Positions 5,502 through 63,935 of a stretch of DNA of 64,000 nucleotides are shown here, piece by piece; position 1 is the stretch's first letter; each line of letters starts with the position of its first letter. Origin of the DNA: Diphasiastrum complanatum (taxonomy: Eukaryota > Streptophyta > Lycopodiopsida > Lycopodiales > Lycopodiaceae); the NCBI GenBank assembly GCA_029204225.1, contig CM055092.1:83122212-83186211 (forward strand), written 5' to 3'. The position numbers were made by a program, and so were the translations under genes. The notes under the pieces were generated by a model, which ran no database searches, was not told where the DNA came from, and saw only the letters and a program-made list of their open reading frames with translations.

Positions 5502-5783
5502 GGGTTTTGTGACTTCTCTCTTTATAGAATCAAAGGACACTTAGGTGTACTAAGTGCAAATAGTTGCCCACCGTTAGATTGACTGCTCAGAGTGTGCACA
5601 GATCTTGGCCCTTGGAAAGACTACCAACTTTCCCACCACTTTTTTTTTTAAAAAAAAAATTAATTAAAAAATGAGGTCTTCTATCATAGCAAGGCATTTT
5701 TCTTTCGCCCTGACTAGTAAAAAAGGTTATTACGCGACATTTGCATTCTACAGAGGTTTGCGAAGTAAATAGAGTAATATAAT

Positions 5784-6386
<603 letters not shown>

Positions 6387-6387
6387 T

Positions 6388-6399
6388 TGGTATCAGAGC
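6388..6399 (+). other. Primer-binding site (initiator Met tRNA type)
   Basis: TGGTATCAGAGC immediately follows the 5' LTR, the usual priming site of plant LTR retrotransposons. Confidence 0.9.
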
Positions 6400-8023
<1,624 letters not shown>

Positions 8024-11463: not shown

Positions 11464-11939
11464 CTGGTCTCGGGTAGCGTGTCCACGCTAGGGACTGGTA
11501 GACCAACAACTCGTAAGTTAATTGTGACTATAAGGGAATTGGGGCCCTTATGTGTATATGGTCATAATTAATGGTTGTAGGCCTAAACACATGGTGGTGG
11601 AGTTGGTATGGGTCTATCAGTGAGTCATTAGGGAACTGGATGACGTGGCCCAGATAGGCTGCAGAGGTGTCCAATGAGGTGTCACAGTGCACTACTAGTG
11701 GTGCATGGGCCTTGGAGGGTATAAGTATACTTGTTGGGCTCTCACTAGTGTATGCTTGATTTGTGATGAGTAGCTACATGCTGCTGGTGTGACTCCTCTT
11801 TCCATGACTCTGATTGATCCATAGCTTGGGGGCTAGATCCGTACGATCTAGGTTTGGTTAGGTTGGTTTAACCTCCACCGGTTCCCATGTGTTGTTGCTT
11901 TGTATGTATGCTTAGACTAGAATCCTGTTGTGAAGACTT

Positions 11940-11940
<1 letters not shown>
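11450..11940 (+). repeat. Ty3 3' LTR
   Basis: Starts TGTCATGCCC right after a purine-rich tract (about 11438-11449, AAGGGGGGAAGA) and aligns with 5916-6386. It ends at CTTT, where a (GA)n tract begins. Sequence differences from the 5' LTR are few apart from the missing left end there, so insertion was not extremely ancient. Confidence 0.9.

Positions 11941-12008
<68 letters not shown>
11941..12008. repeat. (GA)n microsatellite abutting the Ty3 3' LTR
   Basis: 68 bp of pure AG/GA starting at the LTR boundary, in the same strand phase as the tract at 5787-5915 on the other side of the element. Confidence 0.95.
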
Positions 12009-29550: not shown

Positions 29551-29646
<96 letters not shown>

Positions 29647-30284
29647 ATTGGAGGACCTTAACTGCAAGAGATAAAAAAACAAGCAAAAATTAGCAAATTG
29701 ATGCCAATCAACCACCTGATATGATATTCTACGATTGAATATCCTGTAGACATATCGCTAAATTTCCATGAGAGAATGACTGAAAGCAATAAGTTTTTCT
29801 CTCCAAGCTCGTTGGCTATGGAGGAAAAGAAAGAGATGACGATGAAGATGATGGTCTCCAAGATTCCACGAGGCTAGAGATGGTTAGAGATGGCTCAGAT
29901 AACACTGTTATGAACTTGTGTACAATAATGGACAAGGACTAGGAATCTCCACCCTACTCACATGAGCCACTTACTTATACTTGGAGCTACTCTCTTCATC
30001 TCCATTAGGAGAGGGTTATAGAAAGCTCAAAGATGTTATTATTCTTCTATGCCGATTGAGCTCTATCTAACAAAAGCACCCTTGTTTCTTGTGTAGAAAA
30101 GTGTGATGGTTTTCAAGGCATAATAGGATTGTCACACATCAAGTTATCTCCCTTGTAAATGAAGGAAGGGACAAAAGAGGAAGTTCAACAAACCTAGCCA
30201 AGGACTTAGCATTAGACTTAGCATATAATTAGTCTAGGACCTTGCAGAGGACTTAACATAGTCTTTTGCATCCTAGAATGATCA
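29124..30284. other. Spacer with a (GA)n tract
   Basis: No recognised gene. It contains a pure (GA)n tract at 29555-29645 (91 bp). Confidence 0.5.
29555..29645. repeat. (GA)n microsatellite, 91 bp
   Basis: Uninterrupted GA tract. Confidence 0.97.
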
Positions 30285-31863
30285 TTAATCACATTAGAGG
30301 AGTTCCAAAGTAAAAAAATACCCTTTGTAAAGATACTTTTATTTTTATTTTTCTCTAGTTTGGACTGTCACTAGGCCCAATCAAAATGCACAAATTTGAA
30401 ATCTACGTAACGTAATTCAAATCAACTGAGAAATAAAAATACAATATAGAAAACTTTGAAATTTGTGTCCGGGCATAGACTTATTCCATTGGTTTCTTCT
30501 TCCTGCCCGACACATGCTAATCTGTCCGACGTTAATACCTCAAGTTAAATTTACTTAACTATGCTAGTTAGTATAATGAAATTTGCTAACCATACTAGTT
30601 AAAGTTATAGAAATATAGTATGTATAGTTACTTGAAATATAGTATACACAGTAATCGTGACTATGGTGGCAATCACATTAGATTAAATGTGATACGAAAA
30701 ATTGAAATTAAGTATCACATTAGAGACATTTTTGGCGCCCAAGCTTTGAAAATAGCAATGGCAAGGAGACCCAAATCTACAGTCGAGTCTATGATTCTTT
30801 ACAATGAGAAAGATGAAGCTGACAACTAGAAGGCAACAAAATATATGAAGAATTCATGAGTGTTGCTGCATCCATCATCAAAGGGTAATTTTTGACAAAA
30901 GAAATGAGCAAAAATGACATACAAATCTTATTGGAAAGCAAAAATTCTAGAGTTTAAGACTACCCTGGGAGGTCAATCGATATCAAAAGTTTTAGTACAA
31001 CATGTATATATGCATTCATAAATCAAAGTACATGATATCAATCCTCATGATCATCGAGAATGTAATTGTAAGTATATCAAAACATATGCACTCTACAACA
31101 ATCATAGGTGATTTTCTTTATTGATGCTCTTCAGATTATGATTTGAATGCTTCAACATTATTTTTTTTTTTTTTAGATTTATATCCATCATGCATAAGTG
31201 AATGAGAGCCATCACAATCACTTGCATGAATATTGGACGTGATTCACTCTGATGTTGGAAAGCTGCAATACAGAGGAAGAAGTCCAAAGGAACTTGCAGA
31301 TTGTGGTATCTATTTTTATGAATCTTTATATACGCCATCAATGGATGGAGGTTTTGGCAAGCTCGAAGCAATTCCATTGCCTAGTTCTCAGAGTGATGAG
31401 TGGCCTACTCGTGACAGTATTGTTTCTGAATCCTTGAGATGCAAGCTACTCATTGATATTAAAAATGCTATGAGATAAGCACAGACTCGACAATTGTTCA
31501 CCTAAGTTGGTTTATCTCATTACATATATCTGTTGATTTTTCCTCGAGTGCTAGTGTTCGTAGGACACCAACTTTATTTGTTTGCAAGGATTTATCAGAT
31601 GAAACTTTGTCAGATCTCATGGATCAAGGCTGGGATAGTATCTAAACAAATAATGACATAGAATGCAAGATTAAAAGTTCTTCAATGATCTTTTGTTATC
31701 ATATCAAAAAGCAAATGTTCAGTCTCACATTTAGCTATCAGAGATACAAGAAAATTGAAGGTACATGGCTACCACTGAATCAAGACTTTGAGCAAAATGG
31801 TCACTGAATGGAGATAAGCATTATTTACAATGAAAAATATTTGACTACGGTTGAGGTGGAAGA
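30285..31863 (+). mobile_element. Unclassified element copy I, truncated
   Basis: About 1.58 kb that aligns over its whole length with the reverse complement of 62168-63935 (copy III). Similarity begins at CATTAGAGGAGTTCCAAA (about 30291) and includes roughly 470 bp upstream of the gene D start codon, so it is not just a coding match. A copia LTR interrupts it at 31864. Confidence 0.8.
30758..31863 (+). pseudogene. Gene D of the unclassified element, copy I
   Basis: Starts ATGGCAAGGAGACCC and reads MARRPKSTVESMILYNEKDE. After in-frame stops it matches copies II and III through VLLHPSSKGNF, YKSYWKAKILEFKTT, an intron whose donor (AATT then GTAAGT, near 31070) and TTTTTTAG acceptor near 31170 correspond to those of copy III, then DVGKLQYRGRSPKELAD and LFVCKDLSDETLSDLMDQGW. 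It breaks off at TTVEVED, inside what is the ubiquitin-like domain in the other copies, where the copia LTR starts. Several stops make it inactive. This copy shows the ancestral phase of intron 1 best. Confidence 0.7.
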
Positions 31864-32336
31864 TGTTGGAATGTAAATGGAATTGCTTACACTACCATAG
31901 GTTACTTTGACCCAAAAGGTCGAGAGTTGTGTACCATGGTCATTTATTATATTAGGCCTACTAAACTTAGAGTTAGCTAAGTTAGTATGAAATTAACTTG
32001 GTAGGGACTCATGGGTCCACTAGGCCTAATTATTAAGTACCCCAACTTGACATATTGGAGGTACCTTATTCTTTCTATGTAACTTATAGAAAGTTGGATA
32101 GTCAATAGTCAAGTAGTTGGATAGCCAATAGTCATGAAGTTAGATAGTCATCTTGGACTATATATATATGTGCATCCCATTTGTATGAGATACTTTTGTA
32201 AGCAATACTGACTATTCTCCTTGGCTGTCCACGAGTTTCTACAAGAGGGTTTCTAGCCATCTCTTTCTTTCTTTTGAGAATGCTTTGTGTGATTGAATAG
32301 TTAAGATTCTGGATCCTTAGGCTTCTATTTCCTACA
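31864..32336 (+). repeat. Copia 5' LTR, 473 bp
   Basis: Begins TGTTGGAATG and ends CTTCTATTTCCTACA, immediately followed by the primer-binding site TGGTATCAGAGCC (32337-32349). Confidence 0.88.
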
Positions 32337-35147: not shown

Positions 35148-35375
35148 TTTTTCTTGTGTTTTTGTGATTGAAATGCATTTCTAAGCTTGAGTACTTTACT
35201 CTCTATAAATAGGCCATACAGGTACTGTCCTCCACGCGTGTGAGGCCGCTCATCCAAGTTTTTAATCATTTGATCCATTGCTCTTGCTTAAATCATAGTG
35301 TAAAGCATCTAGATCAAGATCTAACACCTAGAACTTGATAGATCTTTGGATTAAGCAATCAATAACTCTTAATAA
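35148..35375 (+). repeat. Fragment of a copia LTR
   Basis: Aligns closely with the reverse complement of about 42895-43125, including the blocks GAGGCCGCTCATCCAAGT and AAGCATCTAGATCAAGATCT. The fragment joins truncated integrase on the left to a transposase fragment on the right. Confidence 0.8.
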
Positions 35376-35384
35376 TTCTGAGCA

Positions 35385-36353
35385 CCGTGATCATCTTTTT
35401 CGTCCAAGCATGAGCAAAGAAAGATTACACACTATTAGGAACAAAGTGAGAGAGATCTTGAGGGTGGACAAAGATGCACGTCCAAAAAAAATCCAAATGG
35501 ACATTGCAAGAGAGCTAATCACAAGCTGTGCTACTGGAGGGGATGCAATGACAAAAACAGACATTTGTAGAGTTGCCAAGGAGATGCAACCTCTTGTGAT
35601 GCAAGGGGGCTTTCAGAGGATGGTTTATAATGCAAGGAAAGATATGGGTCCTCCATCAGAATCACTTGATGCCATTCTAATCTCAAATGAACTTGTCAAT
35701 ATGATTTTTTTCATGGTATGTTATTCCCAGGACAAGTGGGAGATATAGATCGGTGTCATGTTTTTAAAATGTCAACTAAAGGTGTGGATGTTGAAGTGGA
35801 CCTTGTTAATAGAATGAATCCAGAGGGCTCAATGGTTTTGAAGAAGGCTTGGGTGATGTTTGACCATACCCACATAGTCAATGGGTGGGTGATTATGGCT
35901 GCACATGTGTATGATCCAAGGTATGAATTTGTTATATTGTATTGTGACAATAACAAGTTGGGTCCTGGCAAATCATACATAAATACTAACTAGCAACTTT
36001 GTCACTTTATTATGACATGTGCAGCTTGAAAAAATGGTTGACAATAGCAACTTGCAAAATCAAAGAAGAGGATGAAGTGGCACAAGTACTATTTTGGGAA
36101 AAGCTTAATGAAGCGGTGATGAGACAAGGCCACAATAGGCCAAATTTCCATGGATTTATGGCAGATGAGGCACAAGCGAATTGGCGTGCAGTCATAAAAG
36201 TGTACAATCATGGAAGTGTGATAGAGGACATATAAAGATCTTGTTTGTTCCATTGGGAGCAAAGCCTAAAGATACATACAAAAAGGTATGTCATTGGTCT
36301 ACCACTGTTGGAGAAACTTGAAAAACATGAAGGTGACTTATGAAGCGAAGGCA
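35385..36353 (+). pseudogene. MULE-like DDE transposase fragment
   Basis: Three consecutive pieces form one protein: MSKERLHTIRNKVREILRVD (35410 on), VMFDHTHIVNGWVIMAAHVYD (near 35850) and FHGFMADEAQANWRAV (near 36150), followed after an in-frame TAA (36232-36234) by SCLFHWEQSLKIHTKRYVIG. The two Asp boxes and the following FHW segment match the catalytic-core pattern of a MULE-type transposase group found in seed-free plants, known to me by pattern only. An intron or small gap lies near 35718. No terminal inverted repeats were found, so the element borders are unknown. Confidence 0.6.
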
Positions 36354-38020: not shown

Positions 38021-39692
38021 TCTTATTTTCCCTAATGTCACAAAACCTGGTAGGAGCTTTAGAACCCATTCTTGTAGCACCTTCGAACTTGCAAACTAAC
38101 CCTCATAGGAAGGTACAATTCCTTGTCTGATTGAGTTCTAGCATAACACCATTTGAATGCAAATGAGGTGAATTTTCCTATGTAGTGGTCCTTAAATAAA
38201 AAAATTCAACAAAAAAACTTGATTTTTGTTCCTCACCTGACGAGCTGCCGATCCCAATGCATCGTCGAACCCAACACGTTGTCAAACCCGCCAAAACCCA
38301 ACCCTATGCCAAATCAAACCCAACGCGCCACCAAATTGACCACAATGCGCTGCCCCAGCTCTAGGTGTAACCCTAATGCTAGGCCATAATTTTGTACTTA
38401 AGGATTTGCCTTTGCCATTTGAACATATTTGTGCTAACTACATTTAGCAAAAGCAAGGAAGGTTCTCAAAAAATTTCATTTATAATACTTTAATAAAACA
38501 ACAACCATAATATGTAACCAGGTCATGATTCATTTATGCTTGTTCATGTCTCCAAAATTGTGCATCAACCATCCTCTCCAATTCCACGTGTAGCAACTAC
38601 CCTGATCTCCCTGAAGGCAATCACGCTGCAACAAAATAAAACGGTGGTCAAAGTTGAGAACAGTTGAAAACAATAGCATGCAGACAATAAATTTGTAAGC
38701 TGAGAGATGAAATAAGTTGTGTGACAGTTGTGTGTTAGCACAAGAAGACATACATAGAAATTACATATTAATTTGTTTTAAGTGTGGCTAACTTAAGATA
38801 TTAACTTAAGATATGCTCTAGTATACACCATATTGTAGAGTGTTGAAGCGTTATGAGATAACTCATTCTTAATGCATTCATTCATGGAGCTTGCAATATT
38901 GTAGTAGTTTATTGGCTCTACCTACTTCAAGGCACTTGTTTTAACACAATCTAACACGAGAATCTCAATTTGAATTCATTAGAGGAGTTCTCAATATCAA
39001 CCCTTTAAGGAATGCCATGTAGGATATAGAAAAATATCAAAACAAAAAAAACAATATTGTTTATTTGCTTGCCCCCACCACTCCCGAGGCTCCCCAACTC
39101 CCAATGATCTAACCACAGTGTCTATAGTCACAGTTAAGAACTGTAAATAGTTTGCAATATAACTCGACTAAATTCAAAAATATTTCCTCCATTCATTACG
39201 AAAAGGGCAATCTTTTCATTGGATCTAGAATGTGACCGCCATCCCCAAATTCGAATCAGGAAAAATAGCAAAATGTATGCATATGCATTCCTTCCACGAG
39301 AATGAAAATATGGGTGCCATCTCCAATTATGAAAGCCATCTTTACATTGGAATGGAAGAGCACCAACTAGCTATTGTAATGAAAAAATGAGCGACATTTC
39401 CAAATTTGAATCAAGCATACAAGCATGGAGATTGGATTGATCGTACAGAGTATATAATATAATAAAAAATGAGTATTTTGTTTTGCTTCATAGAATCTAT
39501 TCATAGTACTTTGATGCATCCAATTACTCTATTATTTTTTCTGATGACGACATTGTATCATCTACATGTGGATATTCCTATTGATTTGGCACCTTTGCAG
39601 AGAAGGGGAGGCAAAGGAATTCAAATATCTAGTGAGGATCGTTCTCGTTACAGGGCAGAAGGAAAGAAAAACTTGGATTTGTGGACAGATGG
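38021..39692. other. No recognisable gene
   Basis: About 1.7 kb. CATTAGAGGAGTTC at about 38978-38991 repeats the 14 bases seen near the outer edge of copies I and III, but gene D does not follow. A plus-strand open frame just before 39693 (LHVDIPIDLAPLQRRGGKG...) is unassigned. Confidence 0.4.
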
Positions 39693-40855
39693 TGTTGGAT
39701 TTATCTCCTCTAATCTCCTAAATCCCATTTTAATCTGCCTCCATTCATGCTGCATTTTTACTCACATTGCCGCACAGTCTGCATATTTACATGTAAATTC
39801 TCATAGGCGAAGAAAAGACAAAAAAGAATCGTGACACTGTGTTTTTACACGTGTTTTGTGACAGGCGAAAAAGACGACACTGTGCCCTAGGAAGCAAAGA
39901 CACCATGTAAATTAAACCCTAAGGCATTTCGTTAGAGTGACACATTTTTTGTATCTTCACCAAAGGCTGATGTCGCACCCTTTTCACGCTCACCCCATGC
40001 AACTACGCTAACAGACTTGACAACGATTGCAGCCACCCGCGATCTCCTATAGAAGCACATCCACTTTGTACTTTCTTCATTTGCACACCTGTAACATTGT
40101 GTATATATACTGAATACCATTTGCGTATTCAGATTGATTGTTGATTAAGAGATTGACGATCAAGTGTGTGTAAATTTAGCATCAAAAGCTTATCAGAGAT
40201 AGACGAAGTAGATGCCTTGTGCATTGATTCTTTATTGTCAGTAATAGGTTTCATTCCTTTACAGATTGAATTAGCTTTGTAGAACATGTGGTTTCGTCCG
40301 CTATTGTCTTGTGCTCTACCGCATTATTGACATCTATATTTGATATACTTAATCTGATAACAACTTTTTGTTCTGCGTTCAGATCTATGTCAATATTGCT
40401 ATGCTTGTTTTCATTCTATCAGACCTTTCTAATTGCTCGATTTAATAATCTTTTTTTAGCGAGTTAATATTAGTCTAGTTGTAGATGATTAATATTTAGT
40501 CTTGTCTTTTGCGAATCATTTGCGACTGATTATCAGTCGAGCTCAATCTAGCTCTTCACAAATCATTCACGACAGATATTTTGTCTAGCTATTCGCGACA
40601 AATTATTCTTCTGGTGTTTTATTAACGTTTGGCTATGTCATCTGAATGACCGTGATTTCCATCACTAACGTTCTGTTCGTTTCTGATAGGAATAGTCATG
40701 CTTAGGGAGAGAGTCATATAGCTCATTTTGCTGCGCACAGACACTTTCCATTCGAGTTTGTTACTCGTTTGCTTCTTTTTTGTGTTCGATTTTTTTTTCG
40801 AGCTATTTTCGTTTCTCACACACGACACACCCTCTTTCTTTCTCTTCTCCCAACA
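39693..40855 (+). repeat. Copia 5' LTR, 1163 bp
   Basis: Begins TGTTGGATTTATCTCC and ends TTCTCCCAACA, followed by TGGCATCAGAGC (40856-40867), a one-base variant of the primer site. Related LTR sequence is at 48986-49777 (minus), 59925-60352 (plus) and, more distantly, 42708-43130 (minus). Confidence 0.88.
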
Positions 40856-43130: not shown

Positions 43131-44641
43131 ACAAATGTGGAAAATACAAGCAAGACTAGAATTTGCCAATGTCACATCAACTTCTCATTGATTCGGTTGA
43201 CCCTTTATAGATCAAGTACATCCAAGAGCTGTCAAGTGTGAAGAGTGCCTAGTCATCCAAATCCACCAATGGGAGCCATATGTGCTCATTTCCCAAAGTT
43301 GACTATTCTCTTTGGCTAGAAAACAAAAGGCTAGTCTTCCACATTTATAGGAATATTTCCTATAAAATAGGATCAAATGAAATATTTCTATCTTATCTTC
43401 TAGAAGCTTATCCACACGTGTGAATGGTATTTTGACATGTGTGAGTAATAACTCATTCACATGGAAGTCCAATCTATTTACATAAAGTTTGACCAATTTG
43501 ACCAATTTCAAGATTCTACTCAAAGGTCAATTTCACACTAGTGTAGATCTAGCTAAAATCAATCTAACTTTATATGTGACTTATGTACATTCTTTCACAT
43601 GTGGGAGCAGACTCCACACGTGTGAGATCCTATCAAGATCAATTATCTTAAGATCTACAAAGTACATCAAGTTGAAAGTGATATTTTTAACATAGAATGT
43701 ATCACGAATCTAGTCTCCTTTGGATTGTTTGGAATGACATAGTAAATCACAAATTTGCATTGAAAACAACATTGGAAGTCACTGGCACAAACTTGCAATA
43801 AAAGCACTTTAGAGAACCAAGAATATTTTGAACATACTTTCCGTACATGACCAAAAAAATGTAGCTTGTTTGGTTGTCCCTCTCTACCCCTACCTCCACA
43901 AGTTCAATTCGGGCACTCGTACGATCCAACACAAATGCTTTTTCGCAAAATCACATTGAAAACAACATTGGAAGCCACTGGCTTAGTCCACATATGTCCA
44001 TGAAATTTTTGCTGAATGCCATCCCGGGGCATTGCCTTCAATCACATGCAAGGTAGTTCAAATGTAACATTACCATCATACTCCAATGGCAACTCCGAAA
44101 CTCGCACAATTTGCTCAGAGTTAGAAATAAGCTTCCACAATGTACCTTCTTTTCCACCTCCCAAGATTTGTTCTACAATGGAATGTATGAATGAAATATT
44201 GTCAATTTCGAGATTGTGGTCAATAACCTCAATACTATAAGCACTATTTGAAGCTTTCACATCACAATGTGATTTTTCGTTAGCAAGAATTGAATCTTCA
44301 CTATCCACCAATACAATGGGATCAATGTTTGACAATGATTTTTCCAAAAGAGAAATTGTCTTGCCCATCATTAGATAACATTGGTTGCACTTTTATCATT
44401 TGCTCCACTGAGGAATTCTCATGGGCCAATACCCCAAAAACTTGTACCTCCCCTTGCTTGGACCGAAGCATATCAACCAGCAAGGAAGTCTCTACTAATG
44501 ACAAGGAAGTCTCTACCAGAAGTATTTCCAAAGTAGATCTTTCCAATTTCCATTCTAAAGTAGTACTACTATCTTTCAATCATGTACTTATTTCGAATAT
44601 GGCTCAACATAGCTTTCTACAATTTTTATCTCTCGCCACTA
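43131..44641. other. Unassigned region with a 28-bp direct repeat
   Basis: 43759-43786 and 43955-43982 are the same 28 bases with one difference, 196 bp apart. Two adjoining minus-strand frames (44322-44579 and 44042-44371) form a protein-like but unidentified sequence. Confidence 0.45.
44042..44579 (-). pseudogene. Unidentified protein-like remnant
   Basis: Two overlapping minus-strand frames appear to be one coding stretch with a shift near 44360: residues such as LVETSLLVDMLRSKQGEVQV and then VIDHNLEIDNISFIHSIVEQ and VRVSELPLEYDGNVTFELPC. It is rich in Ser, Glu and Val, with no recognised motif. Base composition does not separate it clearly from non-coding sequence. It could be part of a retroelement polyprotein spacer. 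Confidence 0.25.
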
Positions 44642-45479
<838 letters not shown>

Positions 45480-46163: not shown

Positions 46164-47527
46164 ATGGCGTCATCAAGGAAGCCGTGATCCTCAATCGACT
46201 CTGTGATTTTATTCAATGAGACAGATGATAATGGATTATGGGTGCAAGAAAATATTTAAAAAACTCTTGGGTTTTGATGCATCCATCATCAAGAGGAGCA
46301 TTTCGAAAAAGGAAAAGGTCAAAACTATCATTTCGATCTTATTGGAAGGCCATAATTTTGGATTTTAGAACATCATCAGGAGAAAAATCTATTTCTGAAA
46401 TTCTAGTCCAATATATATATGCATTCAGAGATAAATTTGCAAGGATTCAACCGTCAGGATCACAAAAAAAACAACTGTGAGTATTGATATTTTTGATACT
46501 TTATTTTTTGTCATTCATAAAGATCTAGTAGTAAACTTGCCAATCTGATCATTTTTCTCTTGCAAATTTATATCCATCCAACATAAATGAATGGGAGCCG
46601 AGTGGATCTTTAGCAGGTGTATTAGATGTTATTCACACTGATATTGGATAGCTGTAATATCGAGGTAGAACTGCAAAAGATCTAGCTGATAGTAAGATCT
46701 TTTTTTATAAATCAATGTACATTTCTGATACAAAAGAAAATTTTGGACAAATAATACCAATTCCATTACCTAGTTTTGAAAGTGATGAATGGATTTGCAC
46801 CAGATGCTACAGTTTCAGAATCATTTCGTTGCAAGATATATAATGATGTAAAAAATTCATTAAAAATGAGCACGAGATAAAAAACAGTCATATTGAGTTG
46901 GTTTATTTCCTTGAATATATTTGTGGATTTTTTTTTAAGTGTCAATGTACACAAAACTCCAACGATGTTTGTATGCAAAAATTTATCAGATAGTTTATTA
47001 TCTGGACTTATGAATGAAGGCTGGGACAAAAGATCAGATGGAGAAATAGAATGTAGAATTAAAATGTCTTCCATGTCCTTCCATTATCAAATTGAAAAAC
47101 AAATGTTGAGCTTATGCTTCCATTATCAAAGATGAAAAAATAATAAAGGTAAATGGGTGCCACTCGATCAAGACTTGGAAGCCAGTGGACATTCAAAACG
47201 AAAAAATATTGAAATTATATACAATGATGCCGTTTTGACATGTGTTGAGGTGGAAGAAGATTGGAGTCTAAACTACATCTGGCGGGAACTATTGCTCCTA
47301 CAAGATGATGTACTTTCAGACTTCAGATTCATTTTCAATGGTAAACTCTTAAGTAACTATAAGCACTCGATCTTTTATGAATAGTTTCAATCAAAACTTT
47401 CTAATACAAACTCTGTACTAATTCTAACTAACTTTGTATTAGTTTTATGCAGGTACGTAAAAGACATGAGCTCGAGATCAAATGTAGAGATATTGGCGAA
47501 ACAATCCAACTTATGGAAGAACATTGA
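46164..47527 (+). pseudogene. Gene D with C-terminal ubiquitin-like domain, copy II
   Basis: ATG at 46164 (MASSRKP, then a CGA-to-TGA stop). It continues in shifted frames with YLKNSWVLMHPSSRGAFRKR and SYWKAIILDFRTSSG. After an intron it carries IFVDFFLSVNVHKTPTMFVC and LSDSLLSGLMNEGWD, then KWVPLDQDLEASGHSKRKN. The last part, from about 47207, reads IEIIYNDAVLTCVEVEEDWS, LNYIWRELLLLQ, DFRFIFNGKL and, after an intron (acceptor TTTTATGCAG, 47443-47452), VRKRHELEIKCRDIGETIQL ending EEH-stop at 47527. Strand, strand, helix and the hydrophobic FRFIFNGK turn are in the order of a ubiquitin/SUMO-type beta-grasp. There is no C-terminal Gly-Gly. The N-terminal ~300 residues are unrecognised. Confidence 0.6.
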
Positions 47528-47690
47528 GATTCACTATCAGCAAATACATGCCAATTATCATGTCTTTTTATCATTATAGAAAAATTGCATTCCAGTATTG
47601 TGATATCAATTAAAAAACCCATAAACGAGTTGTTTACAAGTAAAATGATCGTATTTTTTTTTTGATGTCTCTCTATTTACAAATAGATCT

Positions 47691-48985
47691 CTATTCAATC
47701 AATTTTTTTATATTTTTTATATCAGTATTAGACATTGATAAGGCAATAGCTCCTTCTATAATCTCGCCCTCCTCTGTTTCGGGAAGGGCCTTAATGTCTT
47801 TTAAGGCAAGAGGAATATCTGCTACAAAATTGTCTTCCTCTGTATTAGGAAGGACTTTTATTTCTTTTTGATCATATAAAATAAGATCTGCATCTTGAGC
47901 AACCTAAAAGGTTGTTAAGGCAGGAGCAGCTTCTTTTTGAGGGCCCTCGATTGCAAGTGCAATGCTTACACCGTACTGGGCATAGGTTCTGATCAACTCT
48001 TGCCGAAATCTATATACATCATTAGGAGTATACGGCTCAAGAGTGAACTTGTCGTATTTGGTTTGGTATCGCTACTGTCATCACAAAACACGAGAATCAG
48101 CAAATTACAAACAATGATAGTAATAAAATATGAATTAGAATGAAATGAACTACAAATGAATAGAATATTACCTTTTCAATATCTACATCCGTTTGTAAAT
48201 TATACCATTCAAAAAACAGCTTTGTATTGTACAAGATGAACCATGCAAAGACGTCTTTTTGTTGTACACACTGCATATATAGAACAAAAATTAGTAATAT
48301 TATGATAGAAATTTTATTTATGCTATGACGATACATTTGATTTAAAAAAGCGTGTATTTGCAGCTGAGTTTAATTTTACACATAGAAAATTTGATACTCC
48401 CTCCTTATTTATCTTGACAAAAAGAATGTTCATGCTCCAATGCCGACTGCAACAACCAAAATACAAATATCGATAAACTCATATTTATGAAGAAATTCCA
48501 TTCTTATTAAAACAATGAAACATGCAACAATCCAGATTAAAGCAACAAAAACAAAAGAGCAATCTTTAATTATTTTCATATAAAATCAAATAGAATTTCG
48601 CCATAGGACTGCACTCGATAAAATAGAGAGCCTTCTCAAAATTGGCTTCTTTCGCCTTTACCGCTCCCATGAAAAATGGACTAACTACAAAAACTGTACC
48701 ATGGGAATCGAAATTAATACTATTCTGCAAAAAAGAAACTCCAGCCTCTACTGTTGCATCTGAAATTTTTGAGGTCTTATCTTTCAACTCGACACAAAAT
48801 TTGGGACCTAATCTAAAGCTTCTACGTGTATCTAGAAGAAAAAAATCAAAAAAGTTGTCGAGAAGATCAATTTTGTTAGCTAGGTAGGCTTCATATTGAT
48901 TATAATGGTCAGAATAAAAAAAAATTTGGCCTGAATCGTATGGAATTCTCACAAAAAGATTATGTAAAGGAGCAAAAACAGAAGT
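47691..48985 (-). pseudogene. Gene C, Ulp1-like protease, copy II
   Basis: Minus strand, at least four exons. The first (48985 to about 48570) reads LGPKFCVELKDKTSKISDAT and FVVSPFFMGAVKAKEANFEK, matching copy III. The next (around 48455-48360) corresponds to the catalytic-His exon but is shifted at that point. The third reads VQQKDVFAWFILYNTKLFFEW (48275-48200), where copy III has Gln-Asn and the catalytic Cys-Gly; here the Cys is lost. The last exon (about 48075-47691) reads FTLEPYTPNDVYRFRQELIR and an acidic tail with two similar LPxTEE segments. The GTAATATT donor after exon 3 is retained. It is catalytically dead by sequence. Confidence 0.65.
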
Positions 48986-49777
48986 GAAAACAATATTTAC
49001 ATTGACACAAATCTGAACGTAGAACAAGCAAAGTTGTTATCAGATTAAGTATAAGAAAATATACAGATCAATAATGTTATTGAACACAAGACAATAGCGG
49101 ACGAAGCCGCGTGCTCTACAAAGCTAACCAATCTGTAAAGGAATGAACCTATTATTGACAATACAAAGAATTGATGCTCGAGGGCATCTACTTCGTCTAT
49201 CTCTAATAAGCTTCTGATCCTAGTATTTTCACACACATTGTTATCTCACATGTTTAGAATACGCAAATGGTATTCAATATATATACGCAATTTTACTAGT
49301 GTGCAGAAAGTGGATGTGCTGTCTGTAGGAGATCGTGGGTGGCAATTGTCGTTGTCAAATTTGTTTGCACAAATGCATTGGATGAGCATGAAAAGGCCGC
49401 GACGTCAGCCTTTGTTGAAATGAATGTTGGTGAAGATGCAAAAAATGCGACACTTTGACAAATTCCTTAAGATTTGATTTACAAGGTGTCTTCCCTTTTT
49501 TGTAAGGGCACCTTCGACATTTTGTAAGACAATGTTGCCTTTTTTGCCTGTGGAAATTTACTTGTATTTATGCAAACATTGTGTAAAAACACAGTGTCAT
49601 GTTTTTCATCTTTTTTGCCTGTGAAAATTTACTTGTATTTATGCAGACAGTCGCATCTTTTGTCTGTCTTATTTTACATGTAAATATGTAGACTGTGCGA
49701 CAACATGAGCAAAAATGCAGTATGAATGGAGGTAGATTAAAATAGGATCTAGGAGAGTAGAGGAGATAAATCCAACA
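48986..49777 (-). repeat. Copia 3' LTR, minus orientation, truncated
   Basis: Its start (reverse complement TGTTGGATTTATCTCC at 49777-49762) follows a G-rich polypurine run (49778-49784). It aligns with 39693 onward until about 48985, where similarity stops inside the LTR and gene C begins. Confidence 0.82.
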
Positions 49778-55775: not shown

Positions 55776-55916
55776 TTTTGATTCATTCATAATCACTAAT
55801 TTTGTTATTTATTCATTTCAACTTTTTGTTGATTTGCTTATTATATACTGCTGTGAATACTGTGAGTGTCCTAGTTTCTACTGACATTTTCATGAACATT
55901 ATGTTTGCAATGCAGA

Positions 55917-57910
55917 TCAGCATTGGTTGTTGATGACCATTTGGCCGATGAGATTTCAATTGGAAACTCACTAGGCTCTATCTTGACTTCTAAATCTATG
56001 ACATCAATGCTAAATAATAACAAAATGAAAAAGATTAAGGCTTTAGTTACTGATAGCATTATGGATGAAGTTGGAAAAGTATTAGACACTACATTGCTTC
56101 AGGGGGCATGTGACTTTTCTAGCATCAGTAAGGAAGCATATGCAACAATGTTTAAGATGATAAAGGAGGCATTTACACAGGTAAATATTAAAAAGTTATC
56201 CCACGACCATTTTATCTTAAAAAAAAGAGAGACATGTTAAACCATGGTATGCAGACAATAGTTGGTAATCCATCTCATATCAATGACGTGTATTGCTCGA
56301 AAGGAGAAAGTCTAGCATATAACAATTCCAACAATTTATTTATTGACATTAATCAGTTATTAACATTTATCATAAATTTTTACGGTATTACAAATGAGAA
56401 TGTCAATAACAAGTTGATAGTTGTTCTCAAGTTAGATGAGTCTGAAATTATAAAAGGACAAAAAATGGAAAGAGTCAGCCTCACAATCATGAATAGAGCA
56501 CTTTCAAATTCAGAAGACTCAGAAGGCCTCAATTTTAGTGTTCAATCAGAAAATGATATTTGATGGTTGGCAGCATTTCAGGTATAACGGTTCCTTCGCA
56601 TAATAAATAGGGATAATCATTTGAATATGGATTTCACATCTAAAATCTCCTCTGTGTTAGTATTATGAGGCGAATCACGTTTTTGTATTCTCTTATAGGT
56701 GCTGAAAGAAGACCATAGCATTCTCTCATGGATATTTAATAGAACATCATATCCTGCCACCATAAAAAATCACATGGAGGGAGTTCCACTCACTATTATT
56801 GGAAATTGGCACTTTCAGCATTGAATGGCATTTAGCAGGAGATCTGAAGACATTAAAATGTATGTTCAATGTATCTCATGGCGCTAACTCTAAATACCCT
56901 TGTTTGTACTGCATGAAAACAACAAAAGACATGACAAGGAGTACAATAGAATCAAGAGACCAAGAAGATCCTAATTGAAAACCTATACTACCGATTCCTC
57001 TACGAAATGTTCATATTTGTACATTGCATGCAGAGGTGCGTATTATAAAACAAATAATATATCTTCACATCTTGTTTGCATGGAATTCCAAGCCAGAGGC
57101 CTTTGCGAAGGAAGCTATTTTCATATTAGAGATTGTGTTGTCCAAAGCAGGCTTACATAAAGGCCACGTTGAAATAAAAAAAGATGACAAGCTACCAAGT
57201 AAAACAGGAAATATTCCATGCAAGCCGAGCATTGGAGGATCTAAAGCTCGAAGATTTTTATCAAATTATTTTGGCAAACAATCTAAGGTTCAATACACGG
57301 TTTGGAAAGAAATTATTGCAGCAACTCAAGATTTCGAAAAAGAAGGTTCCACTCGTATACACAAAGTAGAAGTTTGGAAAAAGTTAGACAATATGGTGAA
57401 ATACTTGAGAAAAGATAAATTTTCAAATACTGATGTTCAAATGATACAGAAAACAACCAATGAATTTGTGGATGCCGTTCAAAGTGCATGGGGTGTTGAT
57501 CATATAACACGTTATATGGTAAGATTTTGATTTTACACTACGATAGACAAATATGTGCAATTAAATTAGATACTTTTGGTATTGATTTAGATTATGTTTT
57601 TAGGACATGTAGCACATATTATGACATCATTCGACATTCTTTGCAAGAAATAGTGGAAGTCTTAGTATATGGTCATCGCAAGGAATGGAAAAATCTCATT
57701 GGCAAGCAAGAGCGACATTTCATAAAAGTACACAACATGGCGGGATTAGCACAAAAAACAGCTATATACTGCAACTTTTCCAATGGTTTTATAGAAGAAT
57801 CTAGATTCCTCATAATACAAAATCCACGGATTATAAAAAATTTCAAAAAGCATGCAAATTTATACAAGCTAGTAGGCTATAGACACAATAAATTTTTGTA
57901 CATTAAATAA
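55917..57910 (+). pseudogene. Gene A, transposase-like
   Basis: Inferred exons 55917-56180, 56255-56581, 56699-57518 and from about 57606 to the stop at 57908-57910, all bounded by AG/GT and mostly in matching phase. VVLKLDESEI (about 56420) and LAGDLKTLKCMFN (56835-56873) are followed by HGANSKYPCLYC, a CxxC box, and by NVHICTLHAE near 57010. This order (Asp box, GDLK-type box, CxxC, His box) is shared with a little-characterised group of DDE-like transposase proteins in plants and animals that I know by pattern only. TGA at 56562-56564 and in the DPN-KPIL stretch (near 56975), plus a shift near 56818, inactivate it. The third acidic catalytic residue was not identified. The 5' end is lost at 55775. 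Confidence 0.55.
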
Positions 57911-57940
57911 AAATATTTACAAAGTACAATTCAGCAGTAT

Positions 57941-58850
57941 CTAATCTGCTTCCGATATTTTTTCCAATGAAAGTTGCAACTTAGAATCATGCAACAATTT
58001 TTTTCTTTCGTATGGATCCAATAGCTCATAGTTTTCATGCTTACTCAGATCAACGTAAGCAGCATACACTGCAAAATGAGATGATCTGAGCATGGAATTC
58101 ACTGGTCCATATCCTAAAATTGTAACCGCAATAGTTTTCTTTACAAAAATTATTTTATGCACCTTATTGAAATTATGTCCTCCAAGAAAATGAGACAGTG
58201 CCTTGATTGCCATAATCATAGTTTCACGATGTTGATGAAACTTTGAATGGACAACACTTATCTCATTATTCTTGAAGGACTTCAGATAGTGCCCCAGTGC
58301 ACGATCTCTTGAAAATTCTCCAGCAGAAGATCTCTGCCCTCCTCGACAAATTGTGAAATCATCAAGGAAAATTGTTTCTTGAAATGATAAAAAACAAAGT
58401 AAGCTCCAGTATATAATCTGACATAACAAATCTACTAGTACTTGATAAGAGACAAAAGCTTACGCATTCGGCTTTGTCTTCTCTAATTACTGTCTCTCCA
58501 TCAATATTATGTCCATCTTTCGATGTCAATATTGTTGGTGAATAGCAGTTGGCTGTGAAAAACCAAGTTGACTTTGGATGAGTGCCACCAGGTCCTGATA
58601 ATGAATCATGTCTTTATTATGAGATTTGAATAGCGGAAAACTGAGTAGGGACTTAAATCTGAGATATATCTCAGAAAATGCCTCCACACCAGGGCCCTTA
58701 GTTATGGAAAGTAGAATAAAAAGAAAAGGAGAAAAAAGAGATTTCAAATAGTCCAACCTATCAGTAATACCAAATTCATTAAAAAAAAAAAACAAACTGG
58801 ATTCAAAATTAGACATTTTAAACAAAAATAACAGAAGTTTCAATTATCGC
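57941..58850 (-). pseudogene. Gene B, unknown, convergent with A
   Basis: The stop at 57941-57943 lies 30 bp from the stop of gene A. The last exon (58377-57941) encodes IFLDDFTICRGGQRSSAGEF, HQHRETMIMAIKALSHFLGG and a Lys/Glu-rich end. The exon before it (about 58600-58464) reads GTHPKSTWFFTANCYSPTIL and EDKAEC, with a GTAAGC donor. Upstream coding (58843-58600) is uncertain. Phases at the last intron do not match perfectly, so a small indel is likely. No known domain is recognised. It may also be a fragment of a second protein needed for transposition. Confidence 0.4.
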
Positions 58851-58896
58851 TCTCAGGCGCAAACACCGCAGGTCAGACAAGCATGTCAAGGCAACG

Positions 58897-59080
58897 TGCG
58901 CTCGAGAGAGATATTTGAAGTTGGAGTATCAGATCCAAACGCAAAAACACCGAGCAGAAAAGAAAAGGGATGCGAAGCGCGCTTGAATGCGATATCGAAC
59001 GATGCAGTATCGGATCCAGGCGCATAATAGTCAACGAAAGGTAATGAGAGCAAGCGACGCGCTTGAAATCGATATCCGGC
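58897..59080 (-). repeat. Left array: three ~80-bp repeats, minus-oriented
   Basis: Reverse-complement copies of a GATATCGNTTTCAAGCGCGC core at 58897-58920, 58978-59001 and 59057-59080, spaced 81 and 79 bp. They mirror the right array at 59456-59635. Confidence 0.75.
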
Positions 59081-59084
59081 AAAG

Positions 59085-59450
59085 CAATCATAAATTTGTG
59101 TGAAAATTCGAGGCGAAAAAGACCTATTTATAAAAAAAAAAATATGCACGTGTGGAGAAGTGGCGAAGGAACACGTGTTGACATGTGATTGGTCAAAATA
59201 AATGCGCCGTACCTAGAATGATTGATCTGACATCTGTCACATGCGAGAATGACACGCGTCGATAACGGATTTGCGCACGTGTCTGAGCCCACGTGGCCTC
59301 ATAATTGGGTCATCATTGTCAGTATGGACATTCCACATGGCCTAATAATCTAACAACACGTGTCTTCGCCGTCTTTTCACACGTGCAAAAAATTTCATAT
59401 ATATAAGTCCTCGGAATTTTTATTTTTTTTCGCAAAATTTTTGCTTTTAG
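59085..59450. promoter_or_regulatory. Divergent promoter with six CACGTG-type boxes
   Basis: ACGTG-core boxes lie at about 59146, 59171, 59272, 59291, 59356 and 59381 (several CACGTG or CACGTGT). A TATA-like TATAAATAGG (reverse complement of about 59122-59131) faces gene B and CATATATATAAG (about 59397-59406) faces plus. Clustered G-boxes are known in plants to bind bZIP and bHLH factors, often in stress or light responses. The symmetric placement between two gene starts argues for bidirectional transcription. Confidence 0.6.
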
Positions 59451-59455
59451 CTCCC

Positions 59456-59635
59456 GATATCGCTCTCAAGCGCGCTCTTTCACCGTTCAAGCTTCTCCCT
59501 CTCACAGTGCGCTCGAGTCCGATACCGCTGGTGGTGCAATATCGCTTTCGAGCGCGCATCTCTTTTCTTCAAATAATCTGTGTAGATCTTGCTCTCAAAA
59601 CCGATATTCAGTTTTGGTATCGATCTCAAGCGTCC
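59456..59635 (+). repeat. Right array: three ~80-bp repeats, plus-oriented
   Basis: GATATCGCTCTCAAGCGCGC at 59456, with related copies at 59537 (CAATATCGCTTTCGAGCGCG) and 59616 (GGTATCGATCTCAAGCGTCC): spacing 81 and 79 bp, the same as the left array. Confidence 0.75.
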
Positions 59636-59715
59636 TTTCATTGCAATTTTTTTTGTTTTCATCCACTTTGGTTTTGTTCAAACTTCATTTTGTTAAATTT
59701 CTTCTTCTGAGAATG

Positions 59716-59924
59716 ATGGCCAAGACCAAATCCACCGCTCGTGCCATCACCACTGTACAGCCATCCCATTCCCGTGTTCCCCCTGATACTGGCCGTAGAT
59801 GTGGCAAGAAGCAGGTCTGGTTGAGGGAGATCAGAAAACTCCAAAGATCAACCGAATTGTTGATCCCTAGCAAGAGGAGCTAGGCAAATTAATAGAGAAA
59901 CTTGTACATTCTGTCTGACTCTCT
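59716..59924 (+). pseudogene. Histone H3 / CENH3-like fragment
   Basis: ATG at 59716 (preceded in frame by another ATG at 59713) opens MAKTKSTAR, close to the invariant H3 N-terminus. A divergent tail follows, then WLREIRKLQRSTELLIP, matching the H3 alpha-N helix. The Pro after LLI is typical of centromeric H3 rather than canonical H3. The frame stops at 59881-59883, but another frame continues with EELGKLIEKLVHSV, comparable to helix 1. A copia LTR fragment starts at 59925 and the rest of the histone fold is absent. Its distance from the plus-side TATA box (about 310 bp) suggests it was the first gene of that promoter. Not functional. Confidence 0.6.
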
Positions 59925-60352
59925 TATTGCTCAATCTGGTAATCTGTTCTTAGCGAATTATTATTAGTCTAGCTGTTCGGGACTAATATTTAGTCTTGCC
60001 TTTCGCGACTAATTCGAGACTAATTATCAGTCGAGCTCAGTCTAGCTCTTCGTGAATCATTTGCAACTAATAATTTGTCTAGTTGTTTCACGACAAATTA
60101 TCCTTCTGATGATTTGTTGTTTAATGTTTGGCTACGTAATCAGATCGACCGTGATTTTTATCACTAACGTTCTGTTTGTTTTTTATAGGCGTAGTTGTGC
60201 TTAGGGAAAGAGTAATTTAGCTCATTCTACTACGCACGAACACTTTCCGTTCGAGTTCATTTCTCGTTTGAGTTTTGAGTTCTTTTATTTTCGTGTTCGT
60301 TTCTTTTAGAGCTATTTTTGTTTCTCACAGTAACACACCCTCTTTCACCCAA
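59925..60352 (+). repeat. Copia LTR 3' part
   Basis: Aligns with about 40430-40855, ending CACCCAACA at 60352. The 5' part of this LTR is absent; it starts abruptly after the H3-like fragment. Confidence 0.85.
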
Positions 60353-60830
60353 CACTAGACACATTTCCATTCGGTCCATACTTCAATCTGTATACCCATT
60401 TGCATTGCACAATTTTTTGCTTATCTGGTACTGGGTGTAGAATCCATACCTCGTTCTTCTTTATTAATTCGATCTTCTCGTTCATGGCTTGCACCCATTT
60501 GTCCTTGTCTGGACGATCGATGGGTTCCTCGTAGGTTTGCGGTTCGCCATTGAATTCGTAGAACTCTTCAGATGTCGAAGTCGAGCTGCTTGGCACGAAT
60601 CTGGCTGGCGCTCTTCATTCTCTTGTTGATCTCTTGAGAGATTCTTCAGGTATTGCAATGTCTTTGCCTTTGTCTCTTCGGCTAGGTGTGGAACCATTGT
60701 GTTTTACTGTTGTTCAAGTTGTAGGTAGGCTTGCAGTTCTATTGTCTAGGACGGCTTCTGCATGTGGGCAGTTTCTTTGTATTTCTGTAGATACAAAGGC
60801 TTGTTGGTCCTTTCTGTGCATTTTTGTAGA
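60353..60830 (-). pseudogene. Copia RT start, minus strand
   Basis: Minus strand: a linker with RLRHLKSSTNS, then DKWVQAMNEKIELIKKNEVW and IVQCKWVYRLKYGPNGNV, the opening of copia RT. It stops exactly at the LTR edge (60352), as if the LTR inserted into it. Confidence 0.8.
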
Positions 60831-60905
60831 CATGAACTCGAAAGCTATCAAAGCTTTGTGGCTAGAAACATTAAGTTTCTTCATTTTATACATATATAGA
60901 TTCAG

Positions 60906-62003
60906 ATGAGTATCTTAAATTTGAGAGTGACATATCTAATGCTGTAGATGGAACTGGAGTTCCATTTTGTTTTAGATTAGAGAAATTTGATTTCACTATA
61001 AATTATAGGGTAATTGATTGTTTGGATCTGAAAAACAAACGAGCTTCTATCAGTGATTTTGTGATAGAATATGGGGTCACACTCTTGCAATTTGACATTG
61101 CAAGAGATTCATCGAGAGAAATTTTGGTGGTCAGCAATTTTTTCCTCCAGGCAATTAAGAAGAAGAATGACACTTTGTCACAATGTTTGTTTAGTGGATG
61201 CACACCAATTACAAAATACCTGCTGATGTCTTATCACTTCAAGTAAATCAATTTCAATGCTTCTTGTTATTTATAGCTTTATCATTGGCATTATCATTTG
61301 AAATATTTCTCAGAATACTCTCTATTTTATTTTGCAGTGAGCATTGGAGTTTAAACCTGATCTCTATTAGGAGACCTGTAAATAATGTTATTAAACATTT
61401 TTGTGTAAAGATGAATTCGGTTGGTAATACATATAAGGATATTGACTCGATCCTATCGATTGTATGTAAATATATTCCATCAGAGACTCCCCATGCAACT
61501 GAATGGGAGATCATCAGTTTGGAGGTAAATTCTGTCCTTCTCATTCTGAAATCAACAATCTAATGTGTTCTTATCATTGTGTGGTTTCCAATTATTGATA
61601 TCTTGTGTTCTGAACTTTTTGCAGTCACCCCAACAAAATGATTCATTCAATTGTGGGTGGTACACTTTGTACAATACAAAGTTGTTTTTTGAGTGGTTCA
61701 TCCTTCAATAGGATGTTGATATTTCAAAGGTGATTTATTTTGTTTATTCTTGATTTTGAAGTCATGATTCATTTTTCTAAGCTGAAAATTTTCTAACCAT
61801 AACTAATATGCAAATATTCTATGTTGTAGTTTAAACTTCATGAATACACAGCATTCTAGGTGTACAAATATAGACAAAAAATAATCTTGATCATATTGGC
61901 GAGGGCAAGGCTTCAGCCAACCCTAGTTGATGATGGCGCTCTGGATGATGTTATTATACTAAATAAAAACCAGAAAAATATAGATATCATAGAACAAATA
62001 TAG
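60906..62003 (+). pseudogene. Gene C, Ulp1/C48-type cysteine protease, copy III
   Basis: Four exons with consistent phases: 60906-61242, 61338-61524, 61625-61729 and 61830-62003, each bounded by AG and GT. Exon 1 reads VPFCFRLEKFDFTINYRVID and SDFVIEYGVTLLQFD. Exon 2 starts EHWSLNLISI, the His-Trp box of Ulp1-type proteases (His codon 61342-61344). Exon 3 has SPQQNDSFNCGWYTLY, matching the Gln...Asn/Asp...Cys-Gly nucleophile box (Cys 61652-61654). The residue expected to be Asp is Asn (MNSVG), a change also seen in copy II. Known members cleave SUMO or ubiquitin-like proteins; many plant transposons carry relatives. A TAG in exon 3 (61710-61712) interrupts it and the 5' exon is missing. Confidence 0.72.
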
Positions 62004-62167
62004 ATTGAAAATGTATAGAATTGATAGGAAAATATATATTTATATATCAAATGCAGTTCCATTTTATTAAATTTGGGAGCCCAAAATACATGTATTGATG
62101 CCAAATTGGGCTTTCATTTATTGAATGAAAGAGTCTATACACAAATTTTGCTGAATTTTATTTAAAG

Positions 62168-63481
62168 TTACTGTTCTTCCACAATGGTGATTGTTGTAGG
62201 TAGATCTTTGCAGCACGTTAGCAGCTCTTGTCTTTTTTGCATATGTGACAAGACAAATATTAGTGAACGTGCCATTGCGAATTATGTCATTTTCCATTAT
62301 TTTGTACTATTTTGAAATGGCATTAAACATAGAGTACTTACGAGTCTTCCATTGATGATGAATCTGAAATAAGTCGGTAGATTGGTTTGTAATAGCATGA
62401 GCTCTGCTCTGATAAAATCAAGCATCCAATGCTCTTCCACCTCGACCATAGTAAAAAATTCTTCATTGTGTATGATGCTTATCTAAGTTTCGGTCTGTGT
62501 GACCATTTAGTTCAAAGTCTTGATCTAGTGGTAGCCATGTGCCATCAATTTTCTTGTATATATGATAACTAAATGTGAGACTGAGCATTTTTTTTCCGAT
62601 ATGATAACGGAAGATCATTGATGACATTTTTATCCTGCATTCTATATCATTATTTGTTTTACTATCTCAGTCTTGATCCATGAGATTTGACAATGTCTCA
62701 TCTGATAAATCCTTGCAAACAAATAAAATTGGTGTCCTTTGAACACTTGCACTTGAGAAAAAATCAACAAATATATGCAATGAGAGAAACCAACTTAGGC
62801 GAACAATTTTTGAACCCATACTTTTCTTCATGGCATTTCTAACATCCAAGAGTAGCTTGCATCTGAAGAATTCAGAAACAATACTATCAGGAATAGGCCA
62901 CTCATCACTCTGAAAACTCCATCTCTTTGTGGTATATATGAAGCTTCATAAAAATATATGTCACTATTTGCAAGTTCCTTTGGACTTCTTCCTTTGTATT
63001 GCAGCTTTCCAACATCAAAGTGAATCTCTACAAGTAATTGTGCTGGCTCCCATTCACTTATGTTTGAAGGATATAAATCTGAAAGAGGAAAAACATTGAA
63101 ATATTTAGATCGTAATCTGAAGAGCATCAATAAAAAAACACGTATGATTACAGTAGAGTACATACGTTTTGATATACTTACAGTTACATTTTCGATGATA
63201 ATGAGGATTGATATCTTGTACTTTCCAAACGCATATGAACATGTTGTACTAAAACTTTTGATATAGATTGACCCCCTTGTCTTAAACTCCAAAATCTTTG
63301 CTTTCCAATAAGATTTGTATTTCATCTTTGTGCTTTTCTTCTGTCGAAAATTGTTCTTTGATGATGGATGCAACAACACCCATGAATTCTTTGTATATTT
63401 TGTTGGCTTCCAGTTATCAGCAACATCTTTCTCATTGTAAAGAATCACAGGCTCAATTGTAGATCTTGGTCTCCTTGCCAT
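62168..63481 (-). pseudogene. Gene D with C-terminal ubiquitin-like domain, copy III
   Basis: Minus strand, ATG at 63481: MARRPRSTIEPVILYNEKDV, SWVLLHPSSKNNFRQKKS, SYWKAKILEFKTR, then a frameshift relative to copy I. Intron 1 has donor GTAAGT and acceptor TCTTTCAG. Next come LYPSNISEWEPAQLLVEI, GKLQYKGRSPKELANSDIYF and LFVCKDLSDETLSNLMD. From about 62490 it reads ISIIHNEEFFTMVEVEEHWM, LDFIRAELMLLQ, FRFIINGRL (donor GTAAGT at 62341) and finally KRQELLTCCKDLPTTITIVE ending at TAA 62168-62170. The C-terminal part matches copy II and has the layout of a beta-grasp ubiquitin-like domain reaching the C-terminus. The rest is unrecognised; several frame breaks. Confidence 0.62.
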
Positions 63482-63935
63482 TGCTATTTTCAAAGCTTAG
63501 GCACCAAAAATCTCTCTGAAATAATTTTAAATTCAATTTTTCATATCACATTTAATCTCAAGATAATGCCACAGTAGTTACAATTATATTTCTAGCAACT
63601 GTGCATACTATATTTCTATAACTGTAACTAGTCTAGTTAACAAATTTTATTATGCTAACCAACATAGTTAAATAAATTTAACTTGAGGTATTGACGTTGG
63701 GCAGATTAGCACAGGAAGAGAGAACCAATGGGATACGTCCATGCTGCCCAACGCAACTTTCAAAGTTTGCTTTAATATATTTTTATTTTTTAGTTTATTT
63801 GAGCTACGTTACGTAGAATTCAAATTTGAGCATTTTCATTGGGCCAGCTGGAGGTCGAAACTAGGAGAAAAAAATAAAAGTATCTTTACAAAGGGTTTTT
63901 TACAATTTTGGAACTCCTCTAATGTTGAACACTTT
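63482..63935 (-). promoter_or_regulatory. Upstream/outer region of gene D, copy III
   Basis: The reverse complement aligns with 30285-30757, including CATTAGAGGAGTTCCAAA at the outer edge, an AAAGATACTTTTATTTTT block, TACGTAACGTA and a CTCAAGTTAAATTTA block. Conservation of this non-coding stretch suggests it is the promoter and perhaps the terminus of the element. Confidence 0.55.

Follow-up and report, generated by a model that had tools for sequence, protein, structure and literature searches.

A clubmoss DNA transposon is described here in which one gene is predicted to join a histone H3 domain to a Ulp1-type (Peptidase C48) protease, and the presence of both in a single four-gene element hints at chromatin editing as a way to escape silencing. 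The window, that is, the whole stretch of 64,000 nucleotides analysed, lies at C1:83122212-83186211 in the 1.74-Gb assembly of Diphasiastrum complanatum. The first-pass annotation of this window had described a mobile pair made up of a Ulp1-type protease gene (gene C) and a convergent gene for a ubiquitin-like protein (gene D), and had proposed that the two might form a self-contained modifier module. Copies collected from the genome bear out that C and D are convergent, linked and mobile, but the pair is only half of the mobile unit, a DNA transposon of about 9.2 kb with inverted termini of about 34 bp, its four genes arranged as the convergent pairs A/B and C/D, an anatomy of which we are practically certain; the H3 domain of gene C had been missed.

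The full extent of the element can be seen in copy L059, which has both ends and measures 9,245 bp (L059:101-9345) between inverted termini reading CAT(T/A)AGAGGAGTTCTCAATATCAAAAAGACCCTT. Both ends are known for four more copies, and exact duplication of 3 bp (TCA) flanks one of these five, the flanks of the rest matching over 0 or 1 base, so that no target site duplication can be regarded as established. The D-side terminus was found on the D side in 27 of 30 loci and the A-side end in six of the 19 stretches fetched for that end, including L053, L057 and L058; L060 has the A-side end, and its partner L009 is without the D-side one. In four 10-kb stretches taken around D copies, D and C are convergent in every case, and in one of these loci, L032, the second convergent pair B/A lies beyond C/D in the same gene order as in the window, a search for the second terminus of this copy having found none. 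Genes C and D converge in 27 of the 30 subfamily-1 loci (the misses being L010, L022 and L030) and, at E ≤ 0.01, in 11 of the 12 subfamily-2 loci (all except L075), and since the flanks were just 1.5 kb long, the misses may be insertions.

The two subfamilies were recognised by means of relatives of gene D with open frames (P0001-P0005). In the D. complanatum genome P0001 is matched at 93-97% identity by at least 137 places, the number scored out of 13,426 first-look candidates, and P0004 by at least 123 (121 of 14,036 candidates scored), of which 118 are at 63-80% and represent a second subfamily, three are subfamily-1 places with 55-56% identity and two are short pieces. No near-identical place for P0004 was found in this genome, and it therefore probably comes from another species. 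Identity between the subfamilies is about 55% for D and 21-48% for C, and the H3 domain is found in both. The copies are spread over many contigs and chromosome positions, and most of those examined are broken. A further D. complanatum protein, P0006 (O6H91_17G044500), is annotated as an ankyrin-repeat protein and has sequence of D's first exon at its end, which is probably a gene-prediction fusion with the transposon.

Gene C is open in L059, where exons at 5581-6563, 6671-6857, 6969-7073 and 7173-7310, separated by GT-AG introns, encode 470 residues, of which 26-123 match Pfam Histone (E 4.9e-26) and 316-443 match Peptidase_C48 (E 4.9e-10). In L033 a stop-free frame runs from the H3 domain (Pfam Histone, E 1.5e-28) via the linker into the protease exon, and the protease of L032 matches Peptidase_C48 in Pfam at E 3.8e-8. 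Judged by these frames, C is a single polypeptide in which the H3 tail and fold are followed by a linker, at first basic and further on rich in proline, and by a Ulp1 (C48) domain. At about residues 151-166 of the L059 protein the linker contains a second stretch resembling an H3 tail (RPRKQTAPKRAPKKVK).

The upstream H3 part was sampled in subfamily 1 at 16 of the first 30 loci, all with C present, and the H3 query matched in all 16 of these further stretches, in L048 without the core; the matched part is free of stops and frame changes only in L044, L047 and the twin rows L049/L050. The domain was also found in L031, L032, L033 and L052. In subfamily 2 it is present in five of six fetched stretches, L086 giving no H3 match: in L088 tail and core share one frame, with a stop within the linker, in L085 and L090 a frameshift separates tail from core, and L087 and L089 have further breaks. 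The fusion itself appears to be old, because the H3 domains of the two subfamilies are 44-47% identical and form one clade in the tree (support 93/94). A protein search with C minus its H3 part gave nothing at E ≤ 0.01 among 2,553 candidates, and one with H3, linker and first protease exon gave five histone-domain proteins and no fusion in other named species. Among titles and abstract openings of the openly licensed literature none dealt with a histone domain carried by a transposon, which does not prove that no such paper exists.

The H3 domain retains the whole histone fold, including the RVTIMPK region, and the best 60 of its 178 PDB matches are all histone H3 chains (top E 2e-22); its identity to canonical H3 sequences is 36-53%. 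Compared with histone H3 and CENH3, the element's domain is alike in its complete fold and in the start of its tail, and unlike in being fused to a linker and a protease and in having a short, altered tail. In subfamily 1 the tail starts with MDR in 21 of 21 rows, of which 20 have K and one has M at the K4 position, and 18 have D and three have N at the K9 position; these rows include one place twice (L049 and L059) as well as near-identical pairs. The tail of the window copy reads AKTKSTARA, and those of subfamily 2 read ARTKQTAH (L085) and ARPKQTAR (L090); no ARKS motif occurs in the tails of the subfamily-1 rows, the window copy, L085 or L090.

As to the protease, by its profile matches and its His, Gln and Cys residues it is placed in the Peptidase C48 (Ulp1) family, in agreement with the original reading of gene C. 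The corresponding HW, QQ and CGW boxes are present in window copy I, L032, L033, L059 and subfamily 2, decayed single copies such as window copy II excepted. The position of the active-site Asp seems, by motif, to hold Asn in both subfamilies (MNS for DS), the alignment with 1euv being gapped exactly there, and protease activity is therefore not certain.

Genes A and B make up the other half of the element. Gene A is transposase-like, with motifs that in the window read LKLDESE (D), AGDLK (D), PCLYC (C2C) and HICTLH (H4H); visual inspection showed the D, D, C2C and H4H motifs in the window copy, L032 and L059, without an assignment of the last catalytic E. The gene is also present in L053, L057 and L058, and no Pfam family or PDB chain matched it up to E 10. 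Over an exon of 180 codons compared between the window and L032, dN is 0.23 and dS is saturated. Gene B, to which no function was assigned, has a protein 49-53% identical in L032, L051 and L052. Its copies in L032 and L059 hold the motifs CPYCNKKC and NDDVYF.TADLCKF, which we take to be faintly reminiscent of KilA-N/Bro-N domains, Pfam giving no match for this gene. In L059 gene A contains frameshifts and gene B one stop.

Within the window every copy is broken by stops, frameshifts or Copia insertions. Copy I (55913-63924) begins with a broken gene A at 55913-57907 on the plus strand, the 5' end of which has been removed by a Copia insertion, followed by part of the convergent gene B at 57944-58613 on the minus strand, both delimited by reading frames. 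A remnant of the H3 part of gene C, namely the tail and first helix, lies at 59716-59882 (plus strand; E 7e-5 in tblastn with the H3 of the element as query; E 2.4e-4 for Pfam Histone, under the curated cut-off) and is separated from the protease exons by Copia-type debris at 59883-60904, of which 59907-60346 is repeated at 40412-40838 in a self-comparison of the window and 60345-60614 contains a Copia polymerase-like frame. The protease part, interrupted by stops, occupies 60905-62003 on the plus strand with exons at 60905-61242, 61338-61524, 61625-61729 and 61830-62003, the same exon pattern as in the open L059 gene, and its first three exons match Peptidase_C48 in Pfam above the curated cut-off (E 2.3e-6, exon sequence at 60905-61711). 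Gene D, recognised by its relatives P0001-P0005, is broken at 62168-63481 on the minus strand, with a remnant of its last exon at 62168-62242. The D-side terminus (CATTAGAGGAGTTCC...) follows at 63890-63924 on the minus strand. An inverted-repeat search gave no second terminus for copy I, the other end of which is lost.

The pattern search of the window for this terminus, a 19-mer with a chance expectation of 0.01 per window, placed CATTAGAGGAGTTCC at 30292 (plus) and 63924 (minus) and a related terminus at 38977 (plus). The former plus-strand site belongs to copy III, a Copia-cut D-side terminus and gene D at 30292-31876 on the plus strand (D itself at 30758-31876), and the related one, at 38977-39020, is the A-side terminus of another copy, matching the A-side ends of L053, L057 and L058. 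The C/D pair does recur in a second copy, as had been proposed, in a broken state (46164-49033): copy II contains gene D at 46164-47527 on the plus strand, with its last exon near 47454-47527, and the decayed protease part of gene C at 47904-49033 on the minus strand, in which the Cys box reads FAW and upstream of which no H3 was found. Elsewhere in the window, direct repeats at 5926-6384 and 11484-11941, 97% identical and about 5.6 kb apart, are probably the LTRs of a young retroelement; the plus-strand frames HVYDPRYEFVILYCD and FHGFMADEAQANW at 35332-36235 are reminiscent of a MULE-type transposase; and long GA/CT microsatellites at about 29600-29680 and 44640-44800 are read in ORFs as RE and SL repeats.

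Copy I itself looks like a mosaic of two subfamilies, most simply read as produced by recombination of two elements. Identity to subfamily 1 is about 80% over its C/D half (L032 687-3825) and only 68% over its gene A, synonymous change against subfamily 1 is saturated in its H3 start and A exon, and Copia remnants sit at the join, near 59883-60904; together these would fit such an origin.

Both gene D and the H3 domain are under constraint, with dN/dS below 1. For D the ratio is 0.18 between window copies I and II, 0.28 between I and III and 0.14 between II and III, and against L028 it is 0.28 for copy I (0.15 in the ubiquitin-like part), 0.46 for copy III and saturated for copy II. Pairs of subfamily-1 copies give a median of 0.36, with 0.54 for singletons and 0.34 for shared changes, values that are biased downwards because the copies were picked by protein similarity. 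For H3 it is 0.14 between L033 and L059, 0.23 between L036 and L033 and, from few changes, 0.71 between L036 and L059.

Gene D encodes about 370-390 residues in several exons and has nothing above the Pfam cut-off; in L059 its start codon was not found by the pattern used. The ubiquitin-like beta-grasp suggested for its C-terminal part held up as far as the order of strands is concerned, AlphaFold modelling the segment without the last exon as E-E-H-E-E (pLDDT 66), and is unproven as regards the fold, since fold and profile searches with the segment or its model gave no significant ubiquitin-fold match and a PDB sequence search with the segment gave none. In hhalign a small D profile scored 5.1 against SUMO and 8.0 against ubiquitin profiles, whereas column-shuffled profiles, 60 for each comparison, reached up to 9.9 and 10.4, and the SH3, KH and ferredoxin controls gave 0.7, 1.8 and 3.7. 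An AlphaFold model of a 330-residue D relative (pLDDT 39) was set aside. We consider a ubiquitin-like fold of this segment possible, with about an even chance. As had been noticed at the outset, the last exon ends without the C-terminal Gly-Gly of a conjugated ubiquitin-like modifier, reading EEH in copy II, EEQ or GEQ in copy I and L033, and EQS in P0004 and subfamily 2.

What the fusion does for the element can be approached by analogy, and our tentative reading, somewhat short of probable, is that C is a chromatin-tethered anti-silencing protease with D as its helper. The H3 part would enter or bind chromatin and so bring the protease to nucleosomes, firstly near the element. The tail keeps an ARTKQTAR-like K4 region and has neither K9 nor ARKS, so that the H3K9 silencing mark could not be placed on nucleosomes containing it. 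From silencing factors at those nucleosomes the protease would strip SUMO-type modifiers, D serving as adaptor or substrate and perhaps carrying a fused ubiquitin-like fold, and the element would in this way resist or undo host silencing, as Ulp1-bearing Vandal/KIU genes are thought to, with the histone as the targeting part. In its most specific form, which we regard as rather unlikely, the transposon would build K9-less nucleosomes on or near itself by means of a fusion of H3, possibly of centromeric descent, with a SUMO-protease-like domain that strips SUMO-type marks from the silencing machinery, D acting as a regulator with a ubiquitin-like domain. The loss of K9 may also be neutral decay of a tail that is no longer used as a tail.

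A different use of the same address is conceivable, in which an H3 part of possible CENH3 origin would guide the transposition complex to certain chromatin or to centromeres, with integration as the task of protease and D. Arabidopsis CENH3 is indeed placed next to the element's H3 clade, with a modest support of 82/90 in a tree with long branches and no lycophyte CENH3, and the LLIP motif of the element's H3 and the RW and RVTLM of subfamily 2 are as in CENH3. However, in the same tree the domain does not group with human CENP-A, its loop 1 is only 0 or 1 residue longer than that of H3, as against 2 in the two CENH3 aligned and about two or more as the mark of CENH3, and the copies are scattered across many contigs and chromosome positions; we hold addressing to chromatin or centromeres to be unlikely. 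It is decidedly unlikely, in our view, that the H3 fold just dimerises C or packs element DNA during transposition: the retention of the whole fold, with the RVTIMPK region, would suit such a structural part, but the H3-like tail start and the protease would be left unexplained.

Proteases of the Ulp1-type fold process ubiquitin-like proteins, and the modifier module originally envisaged, in which C matures, binds or deconjugates a ubiquitin-like domain at the end of D, would account for the C/D linkage and the modelled strand order. Its case is not supported, given that the fold of D is unproven and Gly-Gly is lacking, and it gives the H3 part no role; the fusion of C to H3 suggests a role at chromatin instead of a private modifier, and we regard such a module as quite improbable. 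Finally, the element might simply carry captured pieces of host genes that have no function for it, as would suit the broken state of most copies and the fact that plant transposons commonly capture host sequences (PMC13317346). Against this, two diverged subfamilies have both retained the fusion and the convergent order, and dN/dS is well below 1 in most comparisons of D and H3, so that mere passengers are very improbable. The anti-silencing reading matters in that Ulp1 domains in transposons are already known, their role there is not, and fusion to H3 would give Ulp1 an address, nucleosomes, which makes transposon-encoded anti-silencing at the chromatin level directly testable. Through a mobile element with a constrained core histone domain, moreover, histone variants could arise and spread.

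Among known systems, the KIU (Kaonashi) genes of eudicot non-TIR MULE/Vandal elements are similar in that a captured Ulp1 domain resides in a non-transposase gene of a plant DNA transposon, and in that KIU-bearing Vandal elements escape silencing and hypomethylate their relatives (PMC13317346). In the same text the KIU Ulp1 belongs to a VANC-type gene of elements without terminal inverted repeats (PMC13317346), whereas the clubmoss Ulp1 is fused to H3 and its element differs from Vandal in its inverted termini of about 34 bp (L059 and four more copies) and its transposase-like gene. Ginger1 and Mutator transposons also contain Ulp1 domains; that of Ginger1 forms the C-terminus of a Gypsy-integrase-like transposase, and the excerpted text mentions no histone part (PMC2836005). 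The EnSpm/CACTA, Mirage, Chapaev and Transib transposases (the CMCT clade) share the D, D, C2C and H4H motifs (PMC12730594), and resemble the clubmoss element in these motifs of gene A and in short inverted termini starting with CA; the clubmoss element differs from them in that its gene A is without a Pfam or PDB match and, set against the 2-4 bp target site duplications of CMCT transposons, a 3-bp duplication flanks only one of five copies.
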